From: an uncultured Bacteroidota bacterium
Lineage (GTDB): Bacteria > Bacteroidota > Bacteroidia > 2-12-FULL-35-15
DNA length: 35,216 nt
NCBI GenBank assembly: GCA_903847205.1
Contig: CAINDA010000014.1
Location: 1-35,216 of the forward strand
Reading direction: 5' to 3'
Shown: positions 8,701 to 30,644 of the stretch, piece by piece
Position numbering within the stretch: the first letter of the stretch is position 1
Layout: each line of letters begins with the position of its first letter
The notes under the pieces: generated by a model
The model's database searches: none
What the model was told of the DNA's origin: nothing
What the model saw: the letters and a program-made list of their open reading frames with translations, nothing else
Made by a program: the position numbers and the translations under genes

Positions 8701-9130
8701 GAAATAAATTTATTTTATTTTAAATATCCGAATATACCTATTGTTAAAGGGTATTATATAAAGTCAACGTATTCATCCCTTGATGAATAAAGAAATATCA
8801 ATTATAATTATTACCAACTCAATCCCTTAACTCAGCCGATTGAAACGTTTATTTAATAAATAAGGTTTTAATTTTTGCCCGAACTACCGCAGATTAAGCC
8901 GACTACGAAATTATATAAAGCCCTCATCCAAACTTAGGAGGCAATTAAATAAAATGAACAGCGAATTGTTAATATCTAAATGCTGTGTTGAAAAAGGAGG
9001 GAGCAAGTTTGCAAAAAAGATGAGAAAGCCTGCATTCCATTTATCCAAGATTTCAAAAGGGGTACATAAGCTTGCAGAGAGGTTATGCAAGACTCTGCAA
9101 AGGGAGAGTTAATGCAAGGCTGCAAAGGAG
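8701..9130. other. AT-rich gap between the giant gene start and the 21-bp array
   Basis: No well-supported gene. The part nearest 8700 should hold the promoter and leader of the giant T9SS gene, but I find no clean TAnnTTTG box there. TATTCATC (8770-8777) and GATGAATA (8782-8789) form an 8-bp stem with a CCTT loop, 70-90 bases upstream of the giant start codon. It has no U-tract on either strand and may be a leader hairpin or operator. From about 9028 decayed copies of the neighbouring 21-bp unit begin. Confidence 0.5.
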
Positions 9131-9556
9131 TTATGCAAGATTGCACAGGAGCTGTGCAAGGTTGCACAGGAGCTGTGCAAGGTTGCACAGGAGCTGCGCA
9201 AGGTTGCACAGGAGCTGCGCAAGGTTGCACAGGAGCTGCGCAAGGTTGCACAGGAATCATCCAAGCTTGCAAAGGAGCTGCGCAAGGTTGTACAGGAGTT
9301 GTGCAAGGTTACACAGGAGCTGCGCAAGGTTGCACAGGAGCTGCGCAAGGTTGCACAGGAGGTGTGCAAGGTTGCACAGGAGCTGCGCAAGGTTGCACAG
9401 GAGTTGTGCAAGGTTGCACAGGAGTTGTGCAAGGTTGCACAGGAGCTGTACAAGATTGAAAAGTGGCTGCGCAAGATTGCAAGGAGGCTATGCAAGATTG
9501 AAAAGGGCTGTGCAAGATTGCATAGGGGCAATGTAAGCTTGCAAAGGGGTATATAA
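8954..9556 (+). pseudogene. Possible coiled-coil ORF made of heptad repeats, interrupted by an in-frame TAA
   Basis: An ATG at 8954, with AGGAGG at 8936-8941, opens a 52-residue frame that stops with TAA at 9110-9112. The same frame then runs without a stop to 9554-9556. After the TAA it reads as a chain of heptads, LCKVAQE or LRKVAQE about fifteen times, ending in LYKIEKW-LRKIARR. Hydrophobic residues fall every 3-4 positions, as in a coiled coil, and a looser version of the pattern (VHKLAER, LCKTLQR) precedes the stop. It ends three bases before the convergent rsmD stop. A 21-bp repeat without stops gives open frames on both strands by default, so a real protein is unproven. It could be a broken gene or non-coding. 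Confidence 0.22.
9028..9556. repeat. 21-bp tandem array with a palindrome in each unit (array 1)
   Basis: The core at 9131-9445 is fifteen 21-bp units close to TTGCACAGGAGCTGCGCAAGG. Decayed units flank it on both sides, with 5-base and 1-base length changes near 9105-9115. Each unit has dyad symmetry: TTGCACAG-GAG-CTGTGCAA, eight-base arms around three bases, joined by GG. The commonest variant (CTGCGCAA) breaks one pair as plus-strand RNA but leaves a G-U pair in minus-strand RNA. Adjacent units also form TGCAA-GG-TTGCA. There are no unique spacers, so this is not a CRISPR array. It lies immediately 3' of rsmD. A homogeneous centre with decayed edges suggests slippage or unequal exchange. 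Confidence 0.9.
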
Positions 9557-19897: not shown

Positions 19898-19923
19898 TTT
19901 TTAAAATGAGTTGAATTTAGAAA

Positions 19924-20001
19924 GTTTATAGTTAGAAAGTTTAAAGTTGTAAAGTTGGGGGAATAAAAAAACTATGGACTTTAAACTTTCTAACTTTAAA
20001 C
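19924..20001. repeat. Long inverted repeat between phaB and the hydrolase gene
   Basis: Arms 19924-19948 and 19977-20001 match at 23 of 25 positions when one is reverse-complemented. The core word is AGTTAGAAAGTTTAAAG, and 28 bases separate the arms. The arms themselves contain direct repeats of AACTTTAAAC/TTTCT. On the minus strand no U-tract follows, so it is not a classical terminator. It could be an mRNA-processing or stability hairpin that adjusts expression of downstream genes. Confidence 0.85.
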
Positions 20002-20006
20002 TGATT

Positions 20007-20774
20007 TTAGAACATGTGTAATCCGCCATTTATGGCAATGTTGGCGCCGGTAATATAACGCGCTTCCTCAGAAGCTAAATAAGCCACAGCACCTGCAATC
20101 TCTGCAGGAGTACCCAAGCGCCCCTGCGGAACCTGGGCAATTATTTTGTTGCGAATATCTTCCTGTATAGCCATTACCATTGCAGTACCTACGTATCCCG
20201 GAGAAACGGTATTAACGGTAATTCCTTTTTTAGCTACTTCCAAAGCAAGCGATTTTGAGAAGCCGTACATACCTGCTTTAGTTGCGGCATAATTAGACTG
20301 TCCGAACTGCCCTTTTTGGCCGTTTACTGAAGAAATACTGATAACCCTGCCCCAGCCTTTTGCTATCATACCTTCAATAACAAGACGTGTGCAGATAAAT
20401 ACACTATTAAGATTAGTATCAATCACCTCATACCATTGCTGGGGTGACATTTTGTGAAGAGCTGAATCCCTTGTAATACCTGCGTTGTTAACCAAAACAT
20501 CAACAGGTCCTATTTCATCTGCTATCTGCTTCATCATTTTTTCAGCAGATTTAAAATTTGCAATATCACCCTGAACAATTTTTAAATCAAAGCCCATTTT
20601 CATCTGATCTTCCCGCCAATGCTTTGCTTCTTCTCTCCATTTCATTGCTTTTGTAAAATCCTTATAATTCGCAACAACTGTGTATCCGTCTTTGTATAAT
20701 CGTTCACAGATAGCTGTACCCATTCCGCCTGTACCGCCTGTTACCAAGGCAACTTTATTGTTTTTTTCTCTCAT
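20007..20774 (-). CDS. phaB: Acetoacetyl-CoA reductase
   Basis: A 255-residue short-chain dehydrogenase that reduces acetoacetyl-CoA to (R)-3-hydroxybutyryl-CoA, the substrate of PHA synthase. The cofactor motif is TGGTGGMG (12-19), NNAGITRD is at 96-103, and the catalytic residues are Ser149, Tyr162 and Lys166. The segment SVNGQKGQFGQSNYAATKAG and the C-terminus NGGLHMF are typical of PhaB rather than FabG. It lies between phaC and the hydrolase in one direction. Its ATG follows a run of T (in the mRNA sense) that closes the inverted repeat at 20787-20867, so expression may depend on readthrough of that hairpin. Confidence 0.94.
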   Translation of the reverse strand: MREKNNKVALVTGGTGGMGTAICERLYKDGYTVVANYKDFTKAMKWREEAKHWREDQMKMGFDLKIVQGDIANFKSAEKMMKQIADEIGPVDVLVNNAGITRDSALHKMSPQQWYEVIDTNLNSVFICTRLVIEGMIAKGWGRVISISSVNGQKGQFGQSNYAATKAGMYGFSKSLALEVAKKGITVNTVSPGYVGTAMVMAIQEDIRNKIIAQVPQGRLGTPAEIAGAVAYLASEEARYITGANIAINGGLHMF

Positions 20775-20786
20775 AAAAAATTAATT

Positions 20787-20867
20787 AATTTGTTTATTTG
20801 TTAATTCGATAATCTGCTAATTAAATAAGTTCATTTTCAAATTATCGAATTAACAAATTATCAAATT
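20787..20867. repeat. Long inverted repeat between phaC and phaB
   Basis: Arms 20787-20813 and 20841-20867 match at 25 of 27 positions, with a perfect 17-base part (ATTTGTTAATTCGATAAT region) and a 27-base spacer. On the minus strand the repeat is followed after an AT-rich stretch by six U residues directly before the phaB start codon. It could act as a partial terminator or attenuator, lowering phaB relative to phaC, or as a processing hairpin. Size and geometry match the repeat on the other side of phaB, but the sequence is different. Confidence 0.85.
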
Positions 20868-20873
20868 GTATTT

Positions 20874-22727
20874 TTATTTTACAGCCTTAGATTTGTGCGA
20901 TTTAGTAACGCATTTTTCTTTTACATATCTTCCCGGAGCAGGCTCTATTTCTTTATATTTAGAATTGCCTAAGGCTTTAGGAGCAGGAATTTTCTTACCA
21001 GATTTTTTAAGAAGACTTTCGCTCCAGTATGACCACCAGCTTCCTTCAAAAAATTCAGATCCTTCCTTCCAAGCTTCAAACCCTTCATTTAACTTACCAT
21101 TGACATGATAACCATATTTCTTTTTTGACGGAGGATTTGCAACACCCATTACGTGTCCTGATCCGCCAAGAATAAATTCAACGGGTCCGCTAACAAGTTC
21201 GGTTGTTGTGAAATTTGTCTGAGGCGGAGAAATATGATCATCATTCAATCCGATCACATAAACAGGAACCTCAATTTTACCAATATCAATAGGAGTATTA
21301 CAAATTCTTAATGCATTTTTTCTGCTTAATTTATTTTGAAAAACCATGTTTTTCAAATAATACAAATACATTTTTGCAGGCAGGTTTGTGTTATCATTTG
21401 TCCAGAAGAAAGCATCAAATGGAGTAGGCGTTTTTCCTTTCAAATAATTATTCACAACAAAGCTCCACACCAAATCATTTGCTCTGATCAGGTTGAAAGC
21501 TTTTTCCATATCATGACCGTGCATAAGGCCATTTTCTAATATTTCGCCGCGTTCCATTTTTTTGATCAATGCATTGTCGATAACATCGCCCATAGGACCT
21601 ACATCAGAAAAATCAATCATTGCAGCAAGCAGAGTTGCCGAGTTAACCGGATTTTCTTCAGCTGCTTTGCCATCCGCTCCTGCTTTGCCGGTTTTTGCGG
21701 CTAAGATCGCAAGAGTTGTTCCAAGCAATGTTCCGCCAAGGCAATAACCTAATGTGTTTACTTTTTTTGATTTTGTAACAGCCTGCGCTATTTCAATTGC
21801 TTTTAATGCAGCTTTTTCAACATAGTCATCAAAAATAATATTTCCCATTTCAGGTGTAGGATTTTTCCAGGAAATGATAAAGGTTGTAATTCCCTGATCA
21901 ACACAATATTTTACAAAAGAGTTTTCAGGACGAAGGTCAAGAATGTAGTATTTGTTAATCCAAGGAGGTACAATAACTAAAGGTATTTCAGATACATTTT
22001 TAGTTGAGGGAGTATATTGAATAAGCTGAATTAATTCATTTTCATAAATAACAGCACCGGGTGTAACAGCGAGATTGCGACCGACCTCAAATGCAGTCAT
22101 ATCAGTCTGGGTAATTTTTCCTTTATCAATATCAGCAAGCAGATTTTTAAACCCGTCTATTAAACTCTGTCCGTTTGTTTCCTGCGCTAATTTAAGTGCT
22201 TCAGGATTGGTAGCAATAAAATTGGATGGAGAAAAAGCATCAATATATTGCTTAGTATAAAAACTTAATTTGTTTTTGGTTTTTTCATCTATTTCCGAAG
22301 TCTCAATAATTTGATTCATCAGTTTAGAAACCAAAAGATAATTTTGTTTTACAAAATCAAAATAATAAGGAGCTTCGTCCCATTCCGGTGCTTTGAAACG
22401 TTTATCGCCATCAGCTGGTTTAATTACCGGCTTGTAATCTTCCGGCTTTAAATGTCTTTCACCAATACGTTTCCATAATTCCTGCTGACTCTTAAAAAAA
22501 TCTTTATATAGATCCTGCACCTTTGCAGTTTCTTTAGGGTCATTTAATAACTTAGTACCAAATTCGGTATATGTAAGAGCAATATCTCTGTTATCATGAT
22601 TAGAACCAGACTTGTTATCAAAGTAATTTTCGAGCATTTTCTGACTCGCTTTTGTTATACTTTCCGTTAGTTCTTCGAGATTTGTTTTTTCTTTCTTTTC
22701 CATCAGTTCATTTATTAATTGGTTCAT
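20874..22727 (-). CDS. phaC: Class I polyhydroxyalkanoate synthase
   Basis: A 617-residue PHA synthase that polymerises (R)-3-hydroxyacyl-CoA on the granule surface. The lipase-box-like motif GYCLGG gives the catalytic Cys329; Asp497 (NDDHISP) and His525 (GSGHVMG) complete the triad. The Asp-His spacing of 28 equals that of Cupriavidus necator PhaC. Conserved PPWINKYYILDLRPENSF and FWTNDNTNLP segments and the length point to class I, which needs no PhaE partner. There is an insertion after the Cys motif (KTGKAGADGKAAEENP), and the C-terminus is Lys-rich. Its first codons (ATGAACCAAT) overlap the ATG-rich repeat word described under findings; Met9 is an alternative start. It is part of the fabH-to-dehydrogenase operon. 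Confidence 0.95.
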   Translation of the reverse strand: MNQLINELMEKKEKTNLEELTESITKASQKMLENYFDNKSGSNHDNRDIALTYTEFGTKLLNDPKETAKVQDLYKDFFKSQQELWKRIGERHLKPEDYKPVIKPADGDKRFKAPEWDEAPYYFDFVKQNYLLVSKLMNQIIETSEIDEKTKNKLSFYTKQYIDAFSPSNFIATNPEALKLAQETNGQSLIDGFKNLLADIDKGKITQTDMTAFEVGRNLAVTPGAVIYENELIQLIQYTPSTKNVSEIPLVIVPPWINKYYILDLRPENSFVKYCVDQGITTFIISWKNPTPEMGNIIFDDYVEKAALKAIEIAQAVTKSKKVNTLGYCLGGTLLGTTLAILAAKTGKAGADGKAAEENPVNSATLLAAMIDFSDVGPMGDVIDNALIKKMERGEILENGLMHGHDMEKAFNLIRANDLVWSFVVNNYLKGKTPTPFDAFFWTNDNTNLPAKMYLYYLKNMVFQNKLSRKNALRICNTPIDIGKIEVPVYVIGLNDDHISPPQTNFTTTELVSGPVEFILGGSGHVMGVANPPSKKKYGYHVNGKLNEGFEAWKEGSEFFEGSWWSYWSESLLKKSGKKIPAPKALGNSKYKEIEPAPGRYVKEKCVTKSHKSKAVK

Positions 22728-22770
22728 TGGCTTTGTTGTTGAATTGTTATATGGCTATATTGTTAAATTG
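22728..22770 (-). repeat. AACAATTTA direct repeats in the phaC leader
   Basis: On the minus strand the 43-base gap between the LytTR stop and phaC is built from AACAATTTA-type 9-base words repeated four to five times, with TATAG-CC-ATATA inside. This is a locus-specific low-complexity spacer like others in the cluster. Confidence 0.55.
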
Positions 22771-23187
22771 TTAAATTGTTTTATTGCTTGTTGGGATTTT
22801 TTTTCTGTTGTGATATACTCCGGCTAATATTGTTAAGCTTGCTAATAAATCTTTCCGAAATCTAGAGCCGAATGGTATTTTTTTTTCATTTATAATACAA
22901 TGATTTTCTTTCAGGGTTATTTTGGTAATTTTATCTAAGCGGACGATATAACCCCTATGAACCCTCAAAAAATCGCCTTTAGGAAGCAGAGGCATAATAT
23001 CTGTCATAGTTAAATGTATTTTATCATAAATTTTATTGCTGGTATTAATTATAACATAATCTTTGTCTGCTTCAATAAATAAAATATCCTGAGGATTTAT
23101 TTTTATTAAATCATATTCATCTTTTATAAAAAAAAGCTTTTCAGATATTTGATTTAGTGGCTCCTTAGTCATTGGTTCATTGATCAT
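22771..23187 (-). CDS. LytTR-family DNA-binding regulator
   Basis: A 138-residue protein consisting almost entirely of a LytTR DNA-binding domain: FFIKDEYDLIKINPQDILFIEADKDYVIINT, then MTDIMPLLPKGDFLRVHRGYIVRLDKI and KKIPFGSRFRKDLL. There is no receiver domain, so its signal must come from another protein, perhaps the membrane protein encoded just upstream, whose gene overlaps it by 11 bases. The first residues MINEPMTKEP are encoded by the CAATGAACCAATGAC repeat, and Met6 (23172) is an alternative start. The location directly before phaC makes it a candidate regulator of the PHA operon. Confidence 0.88.
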   Translation of the reverse strand: MINEPMTKEPLNQISEKLFFIKDEYDLIKINPQDILFIEADKDYVIINTSNKIYDKIHLTMTDIMPLLPKGDFLRVHRGYIVRLDKITKITLKENHCIINEKKIPFGSRFRKDLLASLTILAGVYHNRKKIPTSNKTI

Positions 23188-23205
23188 TGGTCATTGGGCA
23201 ATTTT
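23166..23205 (-). repeat. ATG-rich repeat word at the LytTR gene start
   Basis: The minus strand reads CCCAATGACCAATGATCAA then TGAACCAATGACTAAGG: four ATG triplets at 8-10-base spacing. It encodes the last six residues of the membrane protein (PMTNDQ) in one frame and the first ten of the LytTR protein in another. Confidence 0.75.
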
Positions 23206-23653
23206 GGGTAATGCATTTTGAATTTTTTGCCAGAATTAAATATTGTAATATGGATATTTCTCTGGATAATGGCTTTGGAACAAACATTATTTCTTTTGCC
23301 TGATTATTATTATCAAAATATTTTACTTTCCAAATATTTTTATAATTTATTCCTTTAATGTATTGCTTAATAAAATTGATGTTTTGCAATGGAATTATCT
23401 CAATATTGTCCTCACGTTTGATATAAATATTACGGTCGTCAAAGTTAATAGTTTTCAATGTTAAAAGAAAGATAATATAATAACAGGCGAAACCATAAAT
23501 AAGAAGTAAGGGAAAAATAACATTCGCAAAGTCAAAAGGATGCGAAAAGTTATAAATCATAGCTGTAATTAAAACACAAATGCCTAAAATTCCGAGAATT
23601 TCAAAAGCCATATTTGCGGTAAGCCGTGTTTTTTTCATAATGGCTCTTACCAT
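23177..23653 (-). CDS. Two-helix membrane protein with soluble C-terminal domain
   Basis: A 158-residue protein I cannot name. Two hydrophobic helices lie at about 16-37 (AFEILGILGICVLITAMIY) and 45-67 (FPLLLIYGFACYYIIFLLTL). They are followed by a beta-rich cytoplasmic domain (INFDDRNIYIKREDNIEIIPLQNINFIKQY...NIWKVKYFDN) resembling PH-like domains of small bacterial membrane proteins. The start overlaps the fabH-like stop by seven bases; Met6 (MKKTRL, 23638) is an equally good start. The last residues derive from the ATG-rich repeat, and the end overlaps the LytTR start by 11 bases. Membrane protein plus LytTR pairs often form anti-activator/activator modules, so a regulatory role is plausible. 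Confidence 0.75.
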   Translation of the reverse strand: MVRAIMKKTRLTANMAFEILGILGICVLITAMIYNFSHPFDFANVIFPLLLIYGFACYYIIFLLTLKTINFDDRNIYIKREDNIEIIPLQNINFIKQYIKGINYKNIWKVKYFDNNNQAKEIMFVPKPLSREISILQYLILAKNSKCITQNCPMTNDQ

Positions 23654-24666
23654 TTTAATATCATAGCTCCCCAGGCCATGCCAGAACCAACGGCTGCAAA
23701 TAATAAATAATCGCCGCGGGTTAATTTTCCCGCTTTATTTGTTTCGTCCAATAAAATAGGGATTGTCGCGGCTGATGTATTGCCGTATTTATCCATATTG
23801 GTTAATACTTTATTAAAATCGAAATTTAATATTTCGGCTGTTTTTTTTAGGATGCCGATGCTTGGCTGATGCGGTATTACGTATTTTATATCTTCTACTT
23901 TTAATCCTGAATCAATAAATACTTCGCGGATGACTTTGGGCAGTACTTTTGTTGCGAAATCATAGATGCCTTTGCCATCCATCTGCCAGAACTGCTGACG
24001 ATCTTTGGCGGTATTTTCATTTATTGGGTTTTTTGATCCTCCGGCAGGGATATGCCATATCATTTTGCCGCGGCCGTCGGCTCCTACTTTGGAAACAACG
24101 AAGCCTGTTTTTTTATCATCACGTGAAAGTATGATTGCTCCGGCCCCATCGCCAAAAAATACTGAATCACGGCGTGTCCAGTCGGTTATGGTTGAAAAGG
24201 TATCGGCGCCGACAACGAGTATATGCTTATAATTACCGCTTGCTAAACAGTCGGATGCAAGACTGATAGCATATAAAAACCCGGTACATACGGCGGATAC
24301 ATCAAAGGCGCCGGCATTAAAAGCTCCTATTTTTTCTTGTATAAAGCAGGCGGCAGAAGGGGCCCTCATATCGGGAGTGGTAGTAGCGCAGATAATTAAA
24401 TCAATATCCTGAGGTTTTAATTTGGCATCGGCAATGGCTTCAAGGGCTGCTATTGCTCCAAGATCAGAGGTGGTTTCACCTTTTGCAGCTATGCGCCGCT
24501 GTTTGATGCCGAGATGATCAAAAATCCAATGGGCTTTGGTATCTACAATAGTTTCGAGATATTCATTGGTATAAACGCGCATTGGGGTATATGAACCTGT
24601 TCCTGAAATTTTTACATTCTTTAAAATTTTTTTCTTGGCTGGTTCAATCATTGGTTCATTAGGCAT
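23647..24666 (-). CDS. fabH: Beta-ketoacyl-ACP synthase III-like enzyme (KAS III)
   Basis: A 339-residue thiolase-fold condensing enzyme. The catalytic triad is Cys127 (SAVCTGF), His266 (IPHQPS) and Asn296 (KYGNTSAA); the His-Asn spacing of 30 equals that of E. coli FabH. FabH joins acetyl-CoA to malonyl-ACP to start fatty acid synthesis. Related KAS III enzymes such as NphT7 make acetoacetyl-CoA from acetyl-CoA and malonyl-CoA. As the first gene of an operon ending in phaC-phaB and with no thiolase visible, it could supply acetoacetyl-CoA for PHA; that is inference. The N-terminus MPNEPMIEPAKKK is repeat-derived: most FabH proteins begin close to KISGTGSYTP. Met6 (24651) is an alternative start. 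Confidence 0.87.
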   Translation of the reverse strand: MPNEPMIEPAKKKILKNVKISGTGSYTPMRVYTNEYLETIVDTKAHWIFDHLGIKQRRIAAKGETTSDLGAIAALEAIADAKLKPQDIDLIICATTTPDMRAPSAACFIQEKIGAFNAGAFDVSAVCTGFLYAISLASDCLASGNYKHILVVGADTFSTITDWTRRDSVFFGDGAGAIILSRDDKKTGFVVSKVGADGRGKMIWHIPAGGSKNPINENTAKDRQQFWQMDGKGIYDFATKVLPKVIREVFIDSGLKVEDIKYVIPHQPSIGILKKTAEILNFDFNKVLTNMDKYGNTSAATIPILLDETNKAGKLTRGDYLLFAAVGSGMAWGAMILKW

Positions 24667-24712
24667 TAGTCATTGGTTCATTGGGCATTGGTTATTGTTT
24701 TATTATCTATTG
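24640..24712 (-). repeat. ATG-rich repeat word at the KAS III gene start
   Basis: On the minus strand the word AATGAACCAATGA occurs twice, within a run of CCAATGCCCAATGAACC and ACTAATGCC words, giving seven ATG triplets in about 50 bases. It encodes the first nine residues of the KAS III protein, and the upstream protein ends in a similar PNEK. Confidence 0.75.
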
Positions 24713-24713
24713 C

Positions 24714-25007
24714 CTATTTTTCATTGGGTTTTGCAGGCTTTTTATTTTTTTGCTTTAATACTGAATCATTGCGCTTTTTTGATAATGATACTGTATTTAT
24801 TGCTTCAAGTTCATTAATTTCTGTCTGCACTGCTTCAATCATTTCTTTTAATTGATTTTTTTGCTGCGGATGCAAAAGATGCAGGTTTTTTGTAAGAACT
24901 AATTGTAATTTATCGAGATGACTGATACAGTAAGACAGCCGGGATTCTATAGGCAATTTACTAATTGTGCTGTTATATAAAGGGTCAATATCTATAAATT
25001 CCGGCAT
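24714..25007 (-). CDS. Small uncharacterised helical protein
   Basis: A 97-residue protein I do not recognise. It has a short N-terminal part (MPEFIDIDPLYNST) and a predicted amphipathic coiled helix (LSYCISHLDKLQLVLTKNLHLLHPQQKNQLKEMIEAVQTEINELEA). The tail is Lys/Asn-rich and runs into the ATG-rich repeat (KPAKPNEK). It has no signal peptide. It sits 28 bases after the 79-residue protein and 47 before the KAS III gene, all in one direction. A granule-associated role is possible only from context. Confidence 0.6.
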   Translation of the reverse strand: MPEFIDIDPLYNSTISKLPIESRLSYCISHLDKLQLVLTKNLHLLHPQQKNQLKEMIEAVQTEINELEAINTVSLSKKRNDSVLKQKNKKPAKPNEK

Positions 25008-25035
25008 TTTTAATTTAATAATTTATTTTGCATTC

Positions 25036-25275
25036 TTAATTAGAAAAAGCGGCTATTTCTTCCCGTAAATTTTTAACCGCCAATTTTATATATTCTTTTA
25101 AATCTTCAAATTTTAATTGGCTTATTTCTTTTTCTGTAAATATTGTTCGCATAATTTTAGCTGTTGAGTCTGAAATTTTATTTGTTTTTTTCATTATTAC
25201 TAACTCTTTTTCAAGCATTATTAATAATTCTAAATTTACAGCTGAAATTTGGCCGGGGGTAAAACTCTTTTTCAT
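25036..25275 (-). CDS. Small uncharacterised helical protein
   Basis: A 79-residue protein beginning MKKSFTPGQISAVNLELLIMLEKELVIMKKT and ending KFEDLKEYIKLAVKNLREEIAAFSN. It is all-helical and charged, with no signal peptide; function unknown. The frame extends 22 codons upstream to 25341, but that part is encoded by the inverted repeat and spacer before it, and the ATG at 25275 gives a normal protein start, so I chose it. Co-directional with its neighbours. Confidence 0.6.
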   Translation of the reverse strand: MKKSFTPGQISAVNLELLIMLEKELVIMKKTNKISDSTAKIMRTIFTEKEISQLKFEDLKEYIKLAVKNLREEIAAFSN

Positions 25276-25325
25276 GATTAAACCGTTTATAGGTATGATT
25301 TGATAATTTATTATTTTAAAAATTG

Positions 25326-25421
25326 GCAGAGAGCGCAACACAGAAAACTACAACCGTGCAGGTTAGCATAAATTGAAAGTAAAACCTATGAAAGCTTTAT
25401 GCGCCTTTCTGCGCTCTCTGC
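25326..25421 (-). terminator. Inverted repeat with U-tract, probable terminator
   Basis: TGCGCTCTCTGC (25410-25421) and GCAGAGAGCGCA (25326-25337) are perfect 12-base reverse complements. Inner AGGTTTTAC/TAACCT words add pairing in the loop. On the minus strand the second arm is followed by CAATTTTTAA. The long loop (72 bases) is unusual. It lies after the gene ending at 25442 and would separate it from the two small genes and the PHA operon. Confidence 0.55.
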
Positions 25422-25441
25422 ATATCTTTAATTAATTTAAT

Positions 25442-25822
25442 TTAGTAATCATCTTTATGCTGGTGGTAGTTAGTGTCTTCTTTCCAGAAATTGATACATT
25501 CATTTAATTTTTCCTTTTCGAAAGAAGGATTTTTTTTTAATTGCTCCATATTGATGCCGAAAATATTTTTGCATAATTTAGCAAAGCTCCTGCTTTTTTT
25601 TATTTCAAAACCTCTTTTTTCTTTTATCATTGCACTAAGCAGGGGGCGTTTTTTTGAATGCTCATGCAATGATATTTCGGCTAATATTTCTTCTACTATT
25701 TGGTTATGTGCATTTGACGAAATATGAAACCCATAAAATAAATCTTGATTTAATTGTTTTAAACTAATTGTTGTTTTTAATCTTGCCTGTTCAATTAATT
25801 TATTTCTGATTTCTCTTTTCAT
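25442..25822 (-). CDS. Uncharacterised protein with EH...RPLLSA motif
   Basis: A 126-residue soluble protein. The region SLKQLNQDLFYGFHISSNAHNQIVEEILAEISLHEHSKKRPLLSAMIKEK recalls a family of small bacterial proteins with an EI...EH...RPLLSA(V) signature, often with HxxxG-type ends, whose function I cannot name. The C-terminal half is basic and helical. No signal peptide or membrane segment. It is flanked by an ATCGAT-centred inverted repeat at its start and a probable terminator at its end. Confidence 0.6.
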   Translation of the reverse strand: MKREIRNKLIEQARLKTTISLKQLNQDLFYGFHISSNAHNQIVEEILAEISLHEHSKKRPLLSAMIKEKRGFEIKKSRSFAKLCKNIFGINMEQLKKNPSFEKEKLNECINFWKEDTNYHQHKDDY

Positions 25823-25838
25823 TTATTTGAAAATAATT

Positions 25839-25869
25839 ACATCGATTATTAAAATGATTATATCGATGT
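25839..25869. promoter_or_regulatory. ACATCGAT inverted repeat upstream of the 126-residue protein
   Basis: ACATCGAT (25839-25846) and ATCGATGT (25862-25869) are perfect reverse complements 15 bases apart. Each contains the self-complementary ATCGAT. They lie 17-47 bases before the start codon at 25822. This could be an operator or a hairpin ending the upstream unit. Confidence 0.45.
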
Positions 25870-25881
25870 TGTTTGCTGCAT

Positions 25882-25915
25882 ATTGCCTAATGCCTATTGC
25901 CTAATACCTATTGCC
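25882..25915. repeat. 14-base direct repeats
   Basis: ATTGCCTAATGCCT (25882-25895), ATTGCCTAATACCT (25896-25909) and a partial ATTGCC (25910-25915) sit head to tail, three bases beyond the stop of the 215-residue gene. This is another locus-specific low-complexity spacer. Confidence 0.8.
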
Positions 25916-25918
25916 TCT

Positions 25919-26566
25919 TTATGCTATTATTGTTGAAATAACATCGCTGTATGGGCCTTTTTCACCGCGGGTATTTACATAGCATGTTCTAAAATGTGCT
26001 CTTTTGCCCAAATCTGCATCTGTAAAGGGAACAGTTTCCAGAAATTTATGAACTTCCAAAAGGCGCAAAATATCCCATATAATAGGGGATCCGGGTGTAT
26101 CCTGAATACCAACATGTACATGGGTATGCTGCCCTGCGGGCATTGCTTTGGTAGTTGGGAAATTAGGATCGATGATGCGCAGTTTTATCTGCAAATGTGT
26201 TGTTTCCTCAATATGAAGACTGGGTGCATGATCGGCCGGAGCTGAATGGGTACGCGAAGCACCCAGTGCTATATTAAGTGTAGAGCCATCAGTACTGGTT
26301 AAAACTGAGTTTGGAAAGTCATTATAAACAGAACTTAATAAAGTTTTCCAATCCTTGATCATATTGGTTATATTGGTTCTGACCTGCGAAGTTACCAATG
26401 CCGGATCAATATATTTTGCCCATTCTGTATCCCAGATGGTCTTTTTAGCATTTATTGCAGTTAGGTTTGCTGCAGCTATTGCCAAACGTATGGCATTTGT
26501 ATTTAAATAGGTTACTGCATTTCCAATATAAGTATGGAAAGCATCATGTTTTGTTGGGAATGACAT
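25919..26566 (-). CDS. Uncharacterised 215-residue protein with C-terminal beta domain
   Basis: I do not recognise this protein. Residues 1 to about 75 are helical (HDAFHTYIGNAVTYLNTNAIRLAIAAANLTAINAKKTIWDTEW). The middle contains TDGSTLNIALGASRTHSAPADHAPSLHIEE, then a beta-rich domain (HLQIKLRIIDPNFPTTKAMPAGQHTHVHVGI) ending in CYVNTRGEKGPYSDVISTIIA, which resembles a fibronectin type III-like edge. There is no signal peptide, but the His-rich loop QHTHVHV is notable and might bind metal. It sits downstream of the second 21-bp array and a secreted protein in the PHA region. Confidence 0.65.
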   Translation of the reverse strand: MSFPTKHDAFHTYIGNAVTYLNTNAIRLAIAAANLTAINAKKTIWDTEWAKYIDPALVTSQVRTNITNMIKDWKTLLSSVYNDFPNSVLTSTDGSTLNIALGASRTHSAPADHAPSLHIEETTHLQIKLRIIDPNFPTTKAMPAGQHTHVHVGIQDTPGSPIIWDILRLLEVHKFLETVPFTDADLGKRAHFRTCYVNTRGEKGPYSDVISTIIA

Positions 26567-26906
26567 AATTTATTGATTTTTAAATGTTTGTAAAGTATTA
26601 TGAATTACTAATTTAAACGAAGCCGCCTATTTTACAAGCTGCGGATGACAAATATTGCTTAAATCTTCATTCTTCATTTCTGCTTAAGCAAGATTCATTA
26701 AGCCTTAACAGAAGTTCATTAAGCCTTAAGAAGAATATATTAAGCCTTAAGAGAAGTTCATTAGGCCTTAAGAAGAATAAATTAAGCCTCAAGAGAAGTT
26801 CATTAGGCCTTAAGAAGAATATATTAAGCCTCAAGAGAAGTTCATTAAGCCTTAAGAAGAATATATTAAGCCTTAAGAGAAGTTCAGCAGCCCAAATGAA
26901 CAAATT
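26567..26906. other. Gap holding the second 21-bp array
   Basis: 340 bases between the secreted-protein stop (26907) and the 215-residue start (26566). Apart from the array at 26698-26886 I see no gene and no clean promoter box. Frames through the array are open only because the unit lacks stops. Confidence 0.6.
26698..26886. repeat. 21-bp tandem array, nine units in a 42-bp dimer pattern (array 2)
   Basis: Nine contiguous 21-bp units begin TTAAGCCTTAAG or close variants. Each contains the dyad TTAAG-C-CTTAA. The linkers alternate strictly: odd units end AGAAGTTCA, even units end AAGAATATA or AAGAATAAA, so the true unit is a 42-bp dimer. Units 4 and 6 carry TTAGGCC and units 5 and 7 carry CCTCAAG, showing that the dimer has been copied as a block. 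The array starts 20 bases beyond the stop of the secreted-protein gene. Period and palindrome-in-unit design match array 1, but the sequence is unrelated. Confidence 0.92.
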
Positions 26907-27389
26907 CTAATCTTCTTTCTTTTTCTTAGCTGCTTTCGGGTCTTTTTTAGATCCTGTAAAGGTATATTCCTTTTTAGTTTTGCCTTTTTTATTAGTCCAG
27001 GTAGCAGTACCTTCAATATCATCTTTGGTAATGGTACCTTTCCAGGCTAAAACTTCATCGCTGGGGTTTTTCATTTCACTTTCAAAAGAGAGTGTTTTGC
27101 CAGCTTCAGCAGACGAATCAGCTTCAACAGTATAAGGTCCGGGCTTAAATTCATTTTCTTTTTTCATTAAATTTGAAGTAAAAACACCGCCTTTAAAACT
27201 TATTTCGTCAGCTTCCGGGTCTCCGGCTTTTTTACCCTGTCCTACAAGTTCAATTGTAAATATTTTGCCTGCCAAAAGTTTATCAGGCGGACCTTTTTTT
27301 GCGGGGGCCTCCTTTTTCTGGGCATAAATATTATTGGAGAGTGTAAATAAAACACAAATACTAAGAAGAGATAAAATAGTTTTTTTCAT
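26907..27389 (-). CDS. Small secreted Lys-rich protein
   Basis: A 160-residue protein with a signal peptide (MKKTILSLLSICVLFTLSNNIYAQ). The mature part starts with a Lys/Pro-rich stretch (KKEAPAKKGPPDK) and continues as a beta-rich domain (KIFTIELVGQGKKAGDPEADEISFKGGVFTSNLM, LAWKGTITKDDIEGTATWTNKKGKTKKEYTFTGSKKD). The strand pattern recalls lipocalin-like or META-like small secreted domains in which a variant of the measured substance is expressed as text F.G....G.W; I cannot assign one. It ends in a KKKKED tail. No lipobox. Its link with PHA metabolism is only positional. Confidence 0.7.
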   Translation of the reverse strand: MKKTILSLLSICVLFTLSNNIYAQKKEAPAKKGPPDKLLAGKIFTIELVGQGKKAGDPEADEISFKGGVFTSNLMKKENEFKPGPYTVEADSSAEAGKTLSFESEMKNPSDEVLAWKGTITKDDIEGTATWTNKKGKTKKEYTFTGSKKDPKAAKKKKED

Positions 27390-27465
27390 GTTATTAATTA
27401 TTTAATTGTTTAATTATGGGTTTTCAAGCTTTTTAATTCCGTTTTTGATTTAAATAACCGATATC

Positions 27466-27501
27466 CGCGCCTGTTAATTCACGTGTAAAATAACAGGCGC
27501 G
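27466..27501. repeat. GC-rich hairpin downstream of the second phasin-like gene
   Basis: CGCGCCTGTTA (27466-27476) and TAACAGGCGCG (27491-27501) are perfect 11-base arms with a 14-base loop; outer ATAT words extend the pairing. It lies 57 bases after the stop at 27558. Neither strand has a U-tract directly after it, so it is a strong hairpin but not a textbook terminator. It probably protects or ends the phasin mRNA. Confidence 0.65.
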
Positions 27502-27557
27502 AATATAGATATTCGCAGTCAATCTCCAAAAAAATTTGAATTAATTTTAAATGGAAA

Positions 27558-28160
27558 TTAAGCTTTTGCTTTACTGGTTTCCTCTTGTTTCCACCATTCA
27601 GATGCCCAGCTTGTAAATTTATTCAAGCCTTTGTTTTGTAAACTGAATAATGATTCAATTTGGGTGTTGATGCTCTCGCCGAATTTTTGATTAAAATTTA
27701 CAGCAAGGTTAGTATGCTTATTATAGAAATCAAGAATTTCTTTTGTATTTCTGATTTGCAATTGGTGCGATGCTTCAAAATTTTCGTGAATCAACTGCAA
27801 TACTTTTTCAGGATGATCAATTTTTGATTCTTTGATTGCATCAACTAATTTTGTATTAAAATCCACATTCATTTCCATTTGACGGGTATATGAATTAATG
27901 ATACTGTCAAGCGCATCTTCTGCAAGTTCAACAGATTTTCCGAAAGTTGTTTTTAATGTATCTGTAACAGAATCTTCAATTTCCTGCTGATTCAATTTTT
28001 CTTTAATAGAATCAACAATTTTTTTATTAGAATCTAAAGCATCACCAATATATTTGGTGTTAGAAGTAATAATTTCTCTGATTGTTTCTTTTGATTTTTC
28101 AGCAGTACCCTTTATACTGTTTTTAATCTTTTCTGATTTCTCGTTTAATGTTGTGTTCAT
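27558..28160 (-). CDS. Phasin-like PHA granule protein
   Basis: A 200-residue, fully helical, highly charged protein with no signal peptide. It shows the phasin pattern of long amphipathic helices with regular hydrophobic spacing (NTKYIGDALDSNKKIVDSIKEKL, DFNTKLVDAIKESK, KEILDFYNKHTNLAVNFNQKFGESINTQIESLFSLQ) and a Trp-containing end (FTSWASEWWKQEE). Phasins coat PHA granules and control their size and number. It shares repeated words such as SYTRQMEMNVDFN with the neighbouring 248-residue protein (SYSKQMETITAAN), so the two are probably diverged paralogues. The mRNA leader is strongly A-rich (ACAAAAAACAAAATC type), typical of well-translated Bacteroidota genes. Confidence 0.72.
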   Translation of the reverse strand: MNTTLNEKSEKIKNSIKGTAEKSKETIREIITSNTKYIGDALDSNKKIVDSIKEKLNQQEIEDSVTDTLKTTFGKSVELAEDALDSIINSYTRQMEMNVDFNTKLVDAIKESKIDHPEKVLQLIHENFEASHQLQIRNTKEILDFYNKHTNLAVNFNQKFGESINTQIESLFSLQNKGLNKFTSWASEWWKQEETSKAKA

Positions 28161-28200
28161 TTTGTTTTGTTTTTTGATTTTGTTTTTTGTTACTATATTA
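28161..28200 (-). promoter_or_regulatory. A-rich leader of the second phasin-like gene
   Basis: The minus strand immediately before the start codon is almost only A and C with a few T and G (AAAACAAAATCAAAAAACAA). There is no Shine-Dalgarno word; A-rich leaders support translation in Bacteroidota. The 248-residue gene has the same type of leader at 29063-29100. Confidence 0.5.
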
Positions 28201-28242
28201 TTCGCCTAATCTTTTTATTGCTTTAACGATTATAGTGCTATT

Positions 28243-28308
28243 AAAAAAGTTCAGGTTTCAGATTTCAAATTTGCTGGTATAGCCAGAACCTGAAACCCGA
28301 AACCTGAA
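28243..28308 (-). terminator. Terminator between the two phasin-like genes
   Basis: Arms 28283-28308 and 28250-28277 pair imperfectly over about 26 bp. The ends are perfect (TTCAGGTTTC/GAAACCTGAA and CTGG/CCAG), and the loop is five bases (TATAG). On the minus strand it is followed by CTTTTTTAA. It starts eight bases after the stop at 28316. The arms are made of CCTGAAACC words repeated head to tail. The second phasin-like gene would therefore need its own promoter or readthrough. Confidence 0.75.
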
Positions 28309-28315
28309 ACAATTT

Positions 28316-29062
28316 TTATGCTTTAGCTGTTTGTGTTTTTTTAGTAAAATTTGCAGCTTCAGTTTTTAAGAAGTCTGTTGTTTTTTTTGTAGTTTCAGTA
28401 GTTTTAGCAGTGTATTCAGCAATTAAATCCGACCAAAATTTAAGATTTGTGTTAACACTTGTATTCATTTGAGTGTTCAATTTGCTGAACAACTCTTTGT
28501 TTGATTCAAGAGTAGGTGTAACAATTTTTTTATAAGTATCAATAATTGCCTCCATTTTTTCTTTAGAAGCTATAACATTAGTTTCAAGTTCTTTCTTGAA
28601 TTTTTCTGCTAAAGGAGCAAAAGTAGTTTTAGTTGTATCAAACTGTTTTGTAATAGACTCAAAAGATTTTTGATTAGCAGCAGTAATTGTTTCCATTTGT
28701 TTGCTGTATGAATCAAAAATTTGTTTTACAGTTTCTTTTGCAGAGGCAGCAGTTTCAGCTTGTTTTCCAAAATCCATAGCAGTTTTCATTGCTGTTTTTG
28801 ACAAATTTGAAATATTCTCAATATTTTTCTGCATAATTTCAACAACCTTTTCAGATGTGCCAAAAGAGCTGGTAAAATTATCTTTATTAATACCGCCGAA
28901 AGTTTCAGTGATCGCCTTGTTGTACATTTCGCTGGCAGTTTTAATCTGCTTGCTCTGTGTTTCAATAATGGCTGCGGTAGTATCCTGTAACCATTTCATA
29001 GTGCTGTTTACATTTTCTTTGAATGTTTCAGCTGCATCTGTAAATTTTTTTTCTGTTGTCAT
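28316..29062 (-). CDS. Phasin-like PHA granule protein
   Basis: A 248-residue, Ala/Thr/Lys-rich, all-helical protein with no signal peptide. Repeated helices (NSTMKWLQDTTAAIIETQSKQIKTASEMY, VVEIMQKNIENISNLSKTAMKTAMDF, VKQIFDSYSKQMETITAANQKSFESITKQFD) and the Lys/Thr/Ala-rich C-terminus (AANFTKKTQTAKA) are those of phasin-family proteins, which cover PHA granules. Together with phaC and phaB about 6-8 kb downstream on the same strand, this supports granule formation. It is the first gene of this leftward block. A TATCTTTG -7 box lies 107 bases upstream, and the leader next to the ATG is A-rich. Confidence 0.78.
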   Translation of the reverse strand: MTTEKKFTDAAETFKENVNSTMKWLQDTTAAIIETQSKQIKTASEMYNKAITETFGGINKDNFTSSFGTSEKVVEIMQKNIENISNLSKTAMKTAMDFGKQAETAASAKETVKQIFDSYSKQMETITAANQKSFESITKQFDTTKTTFAPLAEKFKKELETNVIASKEKMEAIIDTYKKIVTPTLESNKELFSKLNTQMNTSVNTNLKFWSDLIAEYTAKTTETTKKTTDFLKTEAANFTKKTQTAKA

Positions 29063-29420
29063 TTTTTTGATTTTTTTGTTGATTTTTTTAATTATTAAAT
29101 TAATTGAAAGAACGTTTTTTTAAAGATTATGTTTTGTTTATGACAGACTAAACCTTTTTTTTGCGGTACAAAGATATAATAAAATAATTTACACACACTG
29201 CAATTGTTAATAACTTTTTAATAACCTTGTGAAATATTTATTACATACCGTGATGTTTTTTTATTATACAGCGTAATTTTTATTCCGCAAATGTATTTCA
29301 GTATTTAATAAGTAATGCTATGCAAAAATTAAGTTTATATTAATTAATTTGATACTTTGGCAATCTCGATTTGATAATTTGGTAATGGCTATTCGCCAAT
29401 GACCAATGAACCAATAACTA
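29063..29420. promoter_or_regulatory. Divergent promoter region between phasin-like and MFS genes
   Basis: 358 bases without a gene. On the minus strand TATCTTTG (29176-29169) matches the -7 consensus for the phasin-like gene; the nearest TTG upstream is 24 bases away, so the -33 is uncertain. The leader from there to 29062 ends in an A-rich stretch. On the plus strand the last 30 bases before the MFS start hold another copy of the ATG-rich word (CCAATGACCAATGAACCAAT). The rest is A/T-rich with no clear hairpin. Confidence 0.55.
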
Positions 29421-30644
29421 ATGGACAAACAAGGGCATACAAATCCGATTAATATAGTAGTAATAGTAGCTGCGCTGGGTTACTTTGTTGACATTTATGA
29501 TTTAATTCTATTCAGCATAGTACGTGTTCCAAGCCTTCAGGCAATTGGGGTTCCAGTTGATCAAATTAAAGATTCAGGTATCTTTTTGATTAATATGCAG
29601 ATGGGAGGCATGCTGCTTGGAGGAATAGTGTGGGGCATCTTAGGAGATAAAAAAGGCAGGCTGTCAACACTTTTTCTTACCATCTTACTATACTCTCTTG
29701 CAAATATTGCTAATGGTTTTGTACAAAACATAAATCAATACGCCTGCCTCAGGCTGATTGCCGGTTTTGGGCTCGCAGGAGAATTAGGCATCGGGATAAC
29801 GCTAGTATCTGAAGTAATGACAAAGGAAACACGCGGCTGGGCAACCAGTATTGTTGCCGGAATCGGCATTACCGGAGCAGCATTGGCATATCTGGTTTCG
29901 GAATGGGGATGGAAAGAAGCCTATTGGACCGGCGGCATTTTAGGCTTAATGCTTCTTGGCCTGAGAGTTTATGTTCATGAATCAGGCATGTTTGACAAAG
30001 TAAAAAAATCTGAAGCAAAACGTGGCAATTTTCTCAGCCTTTTTAAAGACCGAAAAAAGTTTTTTAAATATTTCTGCTGTATCTTAACAGGCACACCAGT
30101 ATGGTTTACCATTGGAATACTCATCACTTTTTCAAATGAATTTGGCGAGGCTTTGGGGATTATTGGTTCTGTGAGCCCGGGCAAGGCCGTTATGTTTCAT
30201 TATTTAGGTGCCTCCGTCGGAAGCATGATTACCGGTTTTATCAGCCAAAAGTTAAAATCCAGAAAAAAAGCACTTCTGATTGCAATTGCTTTTCTGGGAC
30301 TATTGAGTTTCTGGTACTTTGGATCATTCGGAATTTCTGCACAATTATTTTACTTCATAATTTTTCTTCTTGGAATTGCACAAGGTTACTGGGCTGTTTT
30401 TATTACAACCGCTTCGGAGCAATTCGGTACCAACATCCGCTCAACGGTTACCACAACTGTTCCTAATTTTGTGAGAGGTGCTACAGTACTGATGATTATA
30501 TGGTGGAGACACATGACTGAAGGAATGGGAATAGTACAGTCGGCTATGATTGTAGGGGCTGTAGTAATAGTGATTGCTTTTGTATCAGTATTTTTTCTGG
30601 AAGAAAGCTATGGGAAAGATTTAGATTATTTGGAAGTAGATTGA
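29421..30644 (+). CDS. MFS transporter
   Basis: A 407-residue major facilitator with about twelve hydrophobic helices. The cytoplasmic loop 2-3 signature GILGDKKGR is at 72-80, and two Asp residues in helix 1 (YFVDIYDLILFS, Asp24 and Asp27) suggest proton coupling, as in the metabolite:H+ symporter and aromatic-acid symporter groups. A basic central loop (KKSEAKRGNFLSLFKDRKKFFKY) separates the halves. The end is hydrophilic (YGKDLDYLEVD). The substrate is unknown; an organic acid is likely from the group. The start codon lies at the end of an ATG-rich repeat. Not obviously part of the PHA operon, from which it is divergent. Confidence 0.88.
   Translation: MDKQGHTNPINIVVIVAALGYFVDIYDLILFSIVRVPSLQAIGVPVDQIKDSGIFLINMQMGGMLLGGIVWGILGDKKGRLSTLFLTILLYSLANIANGFVQNINQYACLRLIAGFGLAGELGIGITLVSEVMTKETRGWATSIVAGIGITGAALAYLVSEWGWKEAYWTGGILGLMLLGLRVYVHESGMFDKVKKSEAKRGNFLSLFKDRKKFFKYFCCILTGTPVWFTIGILITFSNEFGEALGIIGSVSPGKAVMFHYLGASVGSMITGFISQKLKSRKKALLIAIAFLGLLSFWYFGSFGISAQLFYFIIFLLGIAQGYWAVFITTASEQFGTNIRSTVTTTVPNFVRGATVLMIIWWRHMTEGMGIVQSAMIVGAVVIVIAFVSVFFLEESYGKDLDYLEVD

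Follow-up and report, generated by a model that had tools for sequence, protein, structure and literature searches.

Polar arrays of 7- and 8-base tandem units at gene edges in a Bacteroidota contig and in other genomes

Positions 1-35,216 of contig CAINDA010000014.1 (assembly GCA_903847205.1), called the window here, come from an uncultured Bacteroidota bacterium and carry an ATG-rich repeat word at several gene junctions. This word is one of 124 families of period-7/8 units (321 tracts). The tracts follow a rule that holds on either strand: C-skewed (C-type) units are found at the 3' side of an intergenic gap and G-skewed (G-type) units at its 5' side. An earlier note on the window had interpreted the word as a repeat that expands over gene junctions, donates start codons and thereby produces alternative N-termini. 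Below, the genome of the window is labelled G000; relatives and other genomes carry G numbers and loci L numbers.

The word and its junctions in the window

The word is found in a polyhydroxyalkanoate (PHA)-type cluster (20874-30644) that comprises phaC, a KAS III-like gene, a weakly phasin-like open reading frame (ORF) and an MFS gene. phaC encodes a PHA synthase (20874-22727, minus strand; Pfam PhaC_N, 2.7e-69). The LytTR gene (Pfam LytTR, 1.6e-17) is located at 22771-23187 and the KAS III gene (Pfam ACP_syn_III and ACP_syn_III_C) at 23647-24666, both on the minus strand; the latter coordinates are those of the first-ATG call, and codon 6 is the probable true start. The MFS transporter gene (29421-30644; Pfam MFS_1, 4.3e-28) is encoded on the plus strand. 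Three near-copies of the 20-base word CAATGAACCAATGACTAATG with at most three mismatches are present at 23163-23182 (minus), 24664-24683 (minus) and 29404-29423 (plus), and no copy appeared in any of 100 dinucleotide shuffles of the window. A C-type tract of CCAATGA units (24640-24718, minus) abuts the KAS III start. On its far side, a short G-type partner, ATAGGCAATAG, overlaps the stop of a 97-aa ORF. A second CCAATGA-type tract (23166-23199, minus) spans the junction of the hypothetical gene hyp158 and the LytTR gene. A third one (29383-29423, plus) precedes the MFS gene and is itself immediately preceded by the G-type stretch TTTGGTAATGGC (plus). At phaC, a C-type tract (22715-22789, minus) abuts the start as well; its part at 22715-22727 corresponds to CAATGAACCAAT only, and the 5' neighbour on the sense strand is a different tract of period 8, AACAATTT.

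The word as such is real: Three near-copies are present where none is expected. The protein tails PNEK and PMTNDQ can be read upstream, and the opening residues MPNEPMIEP (KAS III), MINEPMTKEP (LytTR) and MNQLINEL (phaC) given in the earlier note are correct when each ORF is read from its first ATG. The ATG spacing had been overestimated with 8-10 bases; it is 7 or 8 (AATGAACC 8, AATGACT 7, AATGCCT 7). A 14-base form, CCAATGACCAATGA, was found with at most one mismatch at 19 places in the 5.49 Mb of G000. Four of these fall within the 35-kb window, which is therefore rich in the word. The reversed control yielded no match, and with zero copies in shuffles and control a chance origin was rejected. 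Among 41 genomes (G000 and 40 relatives) at least one match was detected in 36, mostly few and near control counts, and 162 matches were counted in G015, which belongs to the same genus as G000.

KAS III orthologues (82-86% identity) are encoded in G002, G013 and G018, phaC in all three of these stretches and MFS in two. At the KAS III, phaC and MFS junctions of the relatives' stretches the word is absent. In G002, a different, G-type repeat, TTGGTTGATAGTTG, follows directly after the KAS III stop and precedes phaC, and in the G013 stretch 100 consecutive N lie a short distance upstream of KAS III. The KAS III N-terminus reads MSAAKKK or MSTAAKKR in the relatives and MIEPAKKK in the window. 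Since the relatives start at the residues matching MIEPAKKK, MPNEP is an upstream extension. The MFS protein starts with MLKQG or MLKNG in the two relatives and with MDKQG in the window, at the same ATG, which is the last one of the tract and ends the word. Judged by these alignments, the MFS and KAS III starts are ancestral, and the word merely ends on or before them. The same probably applies to phaC: The conserved methionine of MEEL in the relatives is a leucine in the window, and phaC of G013 aligns from window residue 9 (MEKKEKTN vs. MINKEKRS; MEKKEKTNLEEL vs. MINKEKRSMEEL). LytTR is the exception, because both in-frame candidate ATGs as well as the stop of the preceding hyp158 (PMTNDQ) are located inside the word. 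In a search with LytTR, self-match aside, the 28 best listed matches start at residue 12 or further on and a few weaker ones at residues 4-11.

KAS III and phaC co-occur in the relatives, and the window has additional ORFs between and beside them. lytTR, hyp158 and four queried ORFs upstream of KAS III found no match in the three relatives' stretches, and tracts are present at several such junctions. This would fit a reading in which the tracts are ends or relics of mobile elements or gene cassettes, i.e. inverted repeats around inserted genes. However, no fixed sequence is present and the word differs from gap to gap, which makes this reading highly unlikely.

Direction of the tracts at gene edges

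In 480 kb of G000 sampled blind to the word (82% coding), 23 of 36 period-7 tracts and 22 of 31 period-8 tracts were noncoding, compared to 3/38 for period 6, 5/35 for period 9, 9/13 for period 10 and 4/10 for period 11. With stricter settings (mismatch -2, score 12), the tract search had returned only nine period-7 and six period-8 tracts in this sample, and a looser one was then used. Low-complexity tracts, gaps beyond the length limits of the scripts and C/G ties were excluded before counting. The pooled set of 321 tracts contains most loci fetched, without the 37 held-out loci described below and small early loci. A public set was obtained with three CYAATGA units and comprises at least 117 stretches, 80 of which, those listed, were used first, while the other 37 were held out until the end. 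According to their titles, the 80 are 71 cyanobacterial stretches, six from Bacteroidota, two from Planctomycetes and one from Victivallales; among the public stretches listed, CYAATGA is abundant in Cyanobacteria. The public set and the word loci of G015 and G000 were picked at word matches, i.e. for presence and not for orientation. The sets overlap in origin (L125 is contained in G047, L159 in G041), and L178 and G015:C14 display an identical array and are probably one record. In the 80 public loci, 15 of 90 arrays lack a called gene on one side. An array of more than 80 CCAATGA-type units is found in L263 (G047:C7:13963-14564) from a Mucilaginibacter genome.

In the 80 public loci, 57 of 58 CYAATGA arrays located at most 30 nt from a gene edge point into the gene they touch, at its start or at its stop: 27 are in sense orientation at starts, 30 in antisense orientation at stops and one in sense orientation at a stop, and none is antisense at a start. 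At all distances, 80 of 90 arrays obey the rule. At G015 edges, six arrays are start-sense, 22 stop-antisense, one stop-sense and none start-antisense. In the 37 held-out loci, the rule is obeyed by 22/23 arrays within 30 nt and by 30/43 at all distances. In G000 outside the window (15 word places in 13 stretches totalling 243,589 bases), a more permissive pattern of two units yielded six matches inside ORFs and, outside ORFs, four start-sense, two stop-antisense, one stop-sense and three matches further away; in the window, it yielded three start-sense matches. With this pattern, no arrays at a gene edge were found in the word-blind 480-kb sample: 17 matches fell in ORFs, one was antisense near a start and one further away, and the reversed control gave 6, 1 and 1 in the same categories.

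These counts bear on start codon donation. The word is located at gene edges and not at starts alone: The reversed word is at least as common after stops as the word before starts (G015 22 vs. 6; public loci 30 vs. 27). By arithmetic, if the 7-base units are perfect and each holds one ATG, two of the three reading frames receive an in-frame ATG ahead of the gene, so that first-ATG gene calls will look word-derived. Among 38 array-abutting starts, the first ATG is located inside the array in 22, with a further in-frame ATG beyond the array in 14 of the 22. In eight of the 38, which speak for donation like the LytTR start and the hyp158 stop inside the word, the array holds the sole ATG within 30 codons (GTG and TTG left aside). 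Stop codons are found inside the array in 16 of 51 array-abutting stops. Donation as the main cause was rejected in view of the orthologous starts and the equal use of stops. Together with the frame arithmetic and the 8/38, these reduce it to a minority side effect, and it is highly unlikely that a start-donating repeat accounts for the tracts. What stands of the earlier note is the repeat, its position across junctions and the overlap it creates between the hyp158 stop and the LytTR start; a general donation of starts does not stand. Support for expansion by units comes from other genomes and not from the window itself.

The direction rule is visible in further tests. Of the two array ends, it is the 3' one that is closer to a gene in 66 of 72 public gaps, 21/23 in G015, 10/13 in G000 and 25/32 among the held-out loci; for convergent gaps the ratios are 10:1 (public), 10:1 (G015) and 1:0 (G000). 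Three public and eight G015 wide gaps as well as the in-ORF matches (14 in G015, six in G000) were left out of this test. Pooled over unit families, 181 of 230 skewed-unit tracts obey the rule, among them 32 of 35 in convergent gaps. The unskewed AATGACT retains its own direction (54:4), and words devoid of ATG obey, too (AAAATCT and AAAATCC 23:4, AATTACC 5:0). Without tracts holding at least two YAATGA words, 144/202 obey as the sum of six sets: cyanobacterial loci 59/86, public Bacteroidota 4/7, word-blind G000 plus window 25/40, G000 word loci 19/23, G015 27/34 and the class and genus sample 10/12. By contrast, 30-base gap edges without tracts have no polarity (1012/1886; convergent 135/266). 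A pure start effect was dropped as source of the strand rule, since stop-side arrays and convergent gaps obey it.

Within 25 nt of an edge, the ratio of C-skewed to G-skewed tracts in word-blind G000 is 11:0 at the start side and 7:10 at the stop side. The respective pairs of ratios are 2:1 and 1:2 in the window, 12:3 and 3:9 at G000 word loci, 12:4 and 11:26 in G015 and 1:0 and 0:3 in four stretches of the genus. Tracts are less frequent in the sample from 16 other families of the class (318 kb, 11 tracts), where the stop-side ratio is 1:4.

This distribution could also result from selection on transcripts: Arrays would arise without polarity, and only those in the right direction would survive. 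G-poor, A/C-rich leaders would aid initiation in the case of weak Shine-Dalgarno use, and after stops, G/U-rich trailers would prevent new ATGs or the loading of Rho. The strong C-type character of start-proximal tracts (11:0 in word-blind G000), a similar lean of leaders without tracts (C>G in 154, G>C in 84) and the rarity of sense-oriented ATG words after a stop near the edge (1/58) argue for it, and so do two results from the held-out loci considered below. On the other hand, untracted sequence after stops leans in the opposite direction (C>G 100, G>C 80), untracted convergent edges do not follow the rule that 32/35 tracts follow there, and the ATG-less words obey the rule, too. Selection at starts only leaves stop-side arrays unexplained, and selection on stop composition is not seen in the untracted background. 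A combination of both, acting on abutting arrays, is possible. Overall, we regard transcript selection as somewhat unlikely.

Paired arms, turnover and a proposed origin

From left to right, G-type units tend to precede C-type units on either strand of a gap, and the same word in both halves yields an inverted repeat. Two such G-first palindromes are found in the window on the minus strand. One, composed of period-8 tracts (20774-20867), separates the phaC stop from the following start and has an RNA fold z-score of -6.32; the other (AGTTTAAAGTTAG / CTAACTATAAACT, 19898-20006) lies between two genes (z -7.89). Two period-7 tracts between the phasin-like ORF and a 200-aa ORF (28250-28310, minus; GGTTTCAG / CTGAAACC) form an apparent G-first pair that is shorter than these two and whose pairing was judged by eye only. 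A single G-type tract, TAGGCAATAGGCAT (25877-25919, minus), adjoins the stop of a 215-aa ORF (25919-26566). The four sites of the earlier note are mainly C-type gap ends with at best weak partners, and RNA hairpins at these junctions were not supported (MFS z -0.76; KAS III -1.88, weak; the others +1.06 and +1.54).

Among 103 pairs of arms outside ORFs, the G arm comes first in 83 and the C arm in nine, with 11 ties. Two of the listed C-first pairs are actually GTCATTAG-first, with a C surplus in the letter counts of these arms. The polarity is established for tandem units pooled over the 124 families and in each gene arrangement: G-first to C-first ratios are 15:1 in convergent and 8:1 in divergent gaps, 25:4 between two genes pointing left and 23:3 between two genes pointing right. 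Held-out pairs comprise 15 G-first, three C-first and two ties. More than 60 nt from both edges, pairs are still 16:4 G-first, which speaks against transcript selection, though small uncalled genes could be near; as decisive proof of a mechanism these palindromes were dropped, and they are retained as weak evidence. In the 80-locus public set, a complementary arm was detected on the 5' side in 17/75 and on the 3' side in 0/75. Pairing concerns a minority of tracts: The complement of a tract ranked at 0.05 or better in its own gap compared to other gaps in 10/45, 7/34 and 10/55 cases (at most 5% expected), and in 3/14 tracts of the class sample at rank 0.1, as 11 other gaps per tract are too few for 0.05. 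Plain intergenic hairpins, identified with another script, have no such polarity when pooled (49 G-first, 70 C-first), whereas tandem ones found with the same script are 24:6. By set, the plain ratios are 5:17 in G000, 1:22 in G015, 4:5 in the class and genus sample and 14:11 in public loci. Hence, it is the tandem tracts to which the polarity belongs, and G000 and G015 show this best. The contrast is chiefly one between G and C. Pairs of other periods amount to 3:0 (periods 5-6), 5:1 (9) and 7:5 (10-11). G arms alone fold slightly better (-0.064 vs. -0.023 kcal/mol/nt, RNA parameters).

Unit numbers change between relatives at two cyanobacterial junctions. A search of seven genomes located the first in six, whose flanks share 87-100% identity with the query; the spacer measures 244-412 nt, and the number of units varies among the six. 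At this junction, both arms of G052 carry another word, GGGCATT-type on the left and AATGCCC-type on the right. They match each other with a score of 38, compared to 11-18 for the left arm of G052 with the right arms of the others. Of eight genomes, five yielded the two flanks of the second junction together. Four of these five differ from one another in words and lengths, and an array is lacking in the remaining one. A paired arm change would be expected from arm-to-arm copying and could result from selection for pairing as well.

Alternatively, the heptamers might be RNA or DNA protein-binding sites, i.e. operators of a post-transcriptional regulator, by analogy with a proposal for TAACTGA. 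Abutment to starts resembles that of TAACTGA in a Beggiatoaceae genome (PMC4679880). However, stops and starts are used about equally, many unrelated units share the placement, and in one genome the words were replaced wholesale at one orthologous junction. We consider such sites very unlikely.

The reading that we prefer, with a probability of roughly 0.45, is that degenerate 7-8-base tandem units acquire their polar layout by slippage and fold-back copying. Arrays would lengthen in slippage steps of roughly one unit. The G-skewed strand would then fold back at its 3' end and prime its own extension (template switching), so that the second arm is copied from the first. The gap would fill until coding sequence is reached, and only versions that keep the start or stop would survive. 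An array at a start may lend its ATG, and an array reversed at a stop its TAG. Under fold-back copying, the window sites would be C-type ends of such gaps at gene starts. Instead, a DNA-end process shared by several phyla could add G-skewed heptamers to either end of a broken or stalled gap, writing them outward like telomere repeats on 3' ends, and then close the gap, with the word set locally by self-copying. This would leave (G-type)n-(C-type)n between genes, the polarity of a head-to-head telomere fusion. We deem this outward writing quite improbable.

Several observations weigh against fold-back copying and the generality of the rule. About four fifths of the tracts have no detectable partner in their own gap, and fold-back copying therefore cannot be shown for them. 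Held-out arrays more than 30 nt from an edge obey in only 8/20 cases; consequently, the rule concerns abutting arrays. Held-out convergent gaps split 3:3 as opposed to 32/35 in the pooled set, which weakens the convergent part of the rule. Both results favour transcript selection, the former in particular its combined action at starts and stops. In word-blind G000 plus window, the left/right rule is weak (27/42), and in the 16 other families of the class start-side tracts are 1:2. Gene edges were defined by a simple first-ATG ORF caller, not by curated annotation. Plain hairpins of the cyanobacterial stretches lean to G-first (25:15), and first arms, balanced for A and T in G000 and G015 pairs, have somewhat more T than A in cyanobacterial ones. 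Pairs of period 12-14 are G-first, too (60:9); these are probably double units. The right arm of G052 also scores 32-36 against the left arms of two other genomes, and the concerted word change concerns one genome and one junction. It may be that a G/T-bearing 3' end self-primes more readily; known biochemistry gives no cause of the polarity. Finally, in the Microcystis sample of MacGregor (2015), 8 of 24 mapped TAACTGA sets are reverse to a start (PMC4679880).

If fold-back copying applies, these spacers are a readable trace of directional DNA synthesis rather than neutral leftovers, and heptamers hugging starts and stops in distant phyla can be explained without a regulator. Furthermore, annotators would be warned that first-ATG starts beside arrays can be wrong, and convergent and long gaps would offer a simple means to discriminate mutation from selection.

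Other repeats were observed in the same material. The words CGCAGATTTCGCAGATT and CGCAAAGGCGCAAAG form inverted pairs in two G000 gaps (L076:8201-8330 and L041:11333-11442); words resembling them are common in other phyla. A 43-base GC-rich inverted repeat with the core CCCCTCTCCTTGAAAAAGGAGAGGGG occupies a convergent gap (L047:14055-14296) and is not a heptamer tract. In the window, 26683-26886 contains a tandem array of a 42-base unit (4.5 copies, 95% matches) that is located between the 160-aa and 215-aa ORFs and combines ATTAAGCCTTAAGAGAAGTTC with a near-copy, and 9042-9549 contains about 21-24 copies of the 21-base unit TGCAAGGTTGCACAGGAGCTG, open in several frames. Six 294-base repeats at 4600-6405 within a 2044-aa ORF are perhaps repeated surface-protein domains.

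Comparison with known repeats

Cyanobacterial short tandemly repeated repetitive (STRR) sequences are short tandem heptamers dispersed between genes. The tracts described here resemble them as tandem units of about 7 bases (7 and 8 here) that are mostly intergenic, and the variation in unit number seen at the two cyanobacterial junctions, and only there, is a further likeness. STRR sequences and the window tracts are both dispersed tandem heptamers, but from different phyla. To our knowledge, no polarity rule has been formulated for STRR sequences. Repetitive extragenic palindromic (REP) sequences and miniature inverted-repeat transposable elements (MITEs) are palindromes of a fixed sequence family dispersed by a transposase; the words here differ from gap to gap.

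A hairpin composed of repeat motifs, the P6b stem-loop, is described for the Nostoc tRNA-Leu intron (PMC4476775), with repeat number and motif class varying among relatives. P6b is confined to this one intron, whereas the heptamers here are intergenic and genome-wide.

TAACTGA direct repeats form arrays that abut start codons in forward orientation (MacGregor, 2015; PMC4679880). They are reported there from Cyanobacteria and five Bacteroidetes, with mostly 7-nt indels between two Cyanothece strains. They are found mostly at starts in one genome, and the Microcystis sample has no such preference. Forward arrays just upstream of starts are shared with our tracts, which use stops about equally. 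The word is another one, CCAATGA/CTAATGA and not TAACTGA in the window, and apart from one inverted repeat the passages considered describe neither a partner arm nor a general polarity rule.

The closest precedent are the G-rich heptamers GGGAATC and GGGGA(C/T)T of Xanthomonas and Nostoc, which are intergenic 7-base tandem units (Rehm et al., 2015; PMC4692102). They are reported to lie, with hardly any exception, closer to the next 5' ORF than to the ORF downstream, whatever the ORF orientation, and one figure legend mentions an inverted pair. This means, the polarity is already known for one kind of word, and the same rule was found here for G-type words, with the 3:3 split of held-out convergent gaps as a reservation. 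In the literature searched, no description came up of a polarity that extends to many words or of its link with paired arms. The heptamers of Rehm et al. form G-quadruplexes (G4s), with a preference for four units, and are discussed as such for three genomes. TCATTGG and TCATTAG contain at most GG and lack the G runs of G4 heptamers. In comparison, the tracts analysed here comprise many words without G runs, C-type ends in addition to G-type ones and paired arms, and they occur in Bacteroidota as well as Cyanobacteria.

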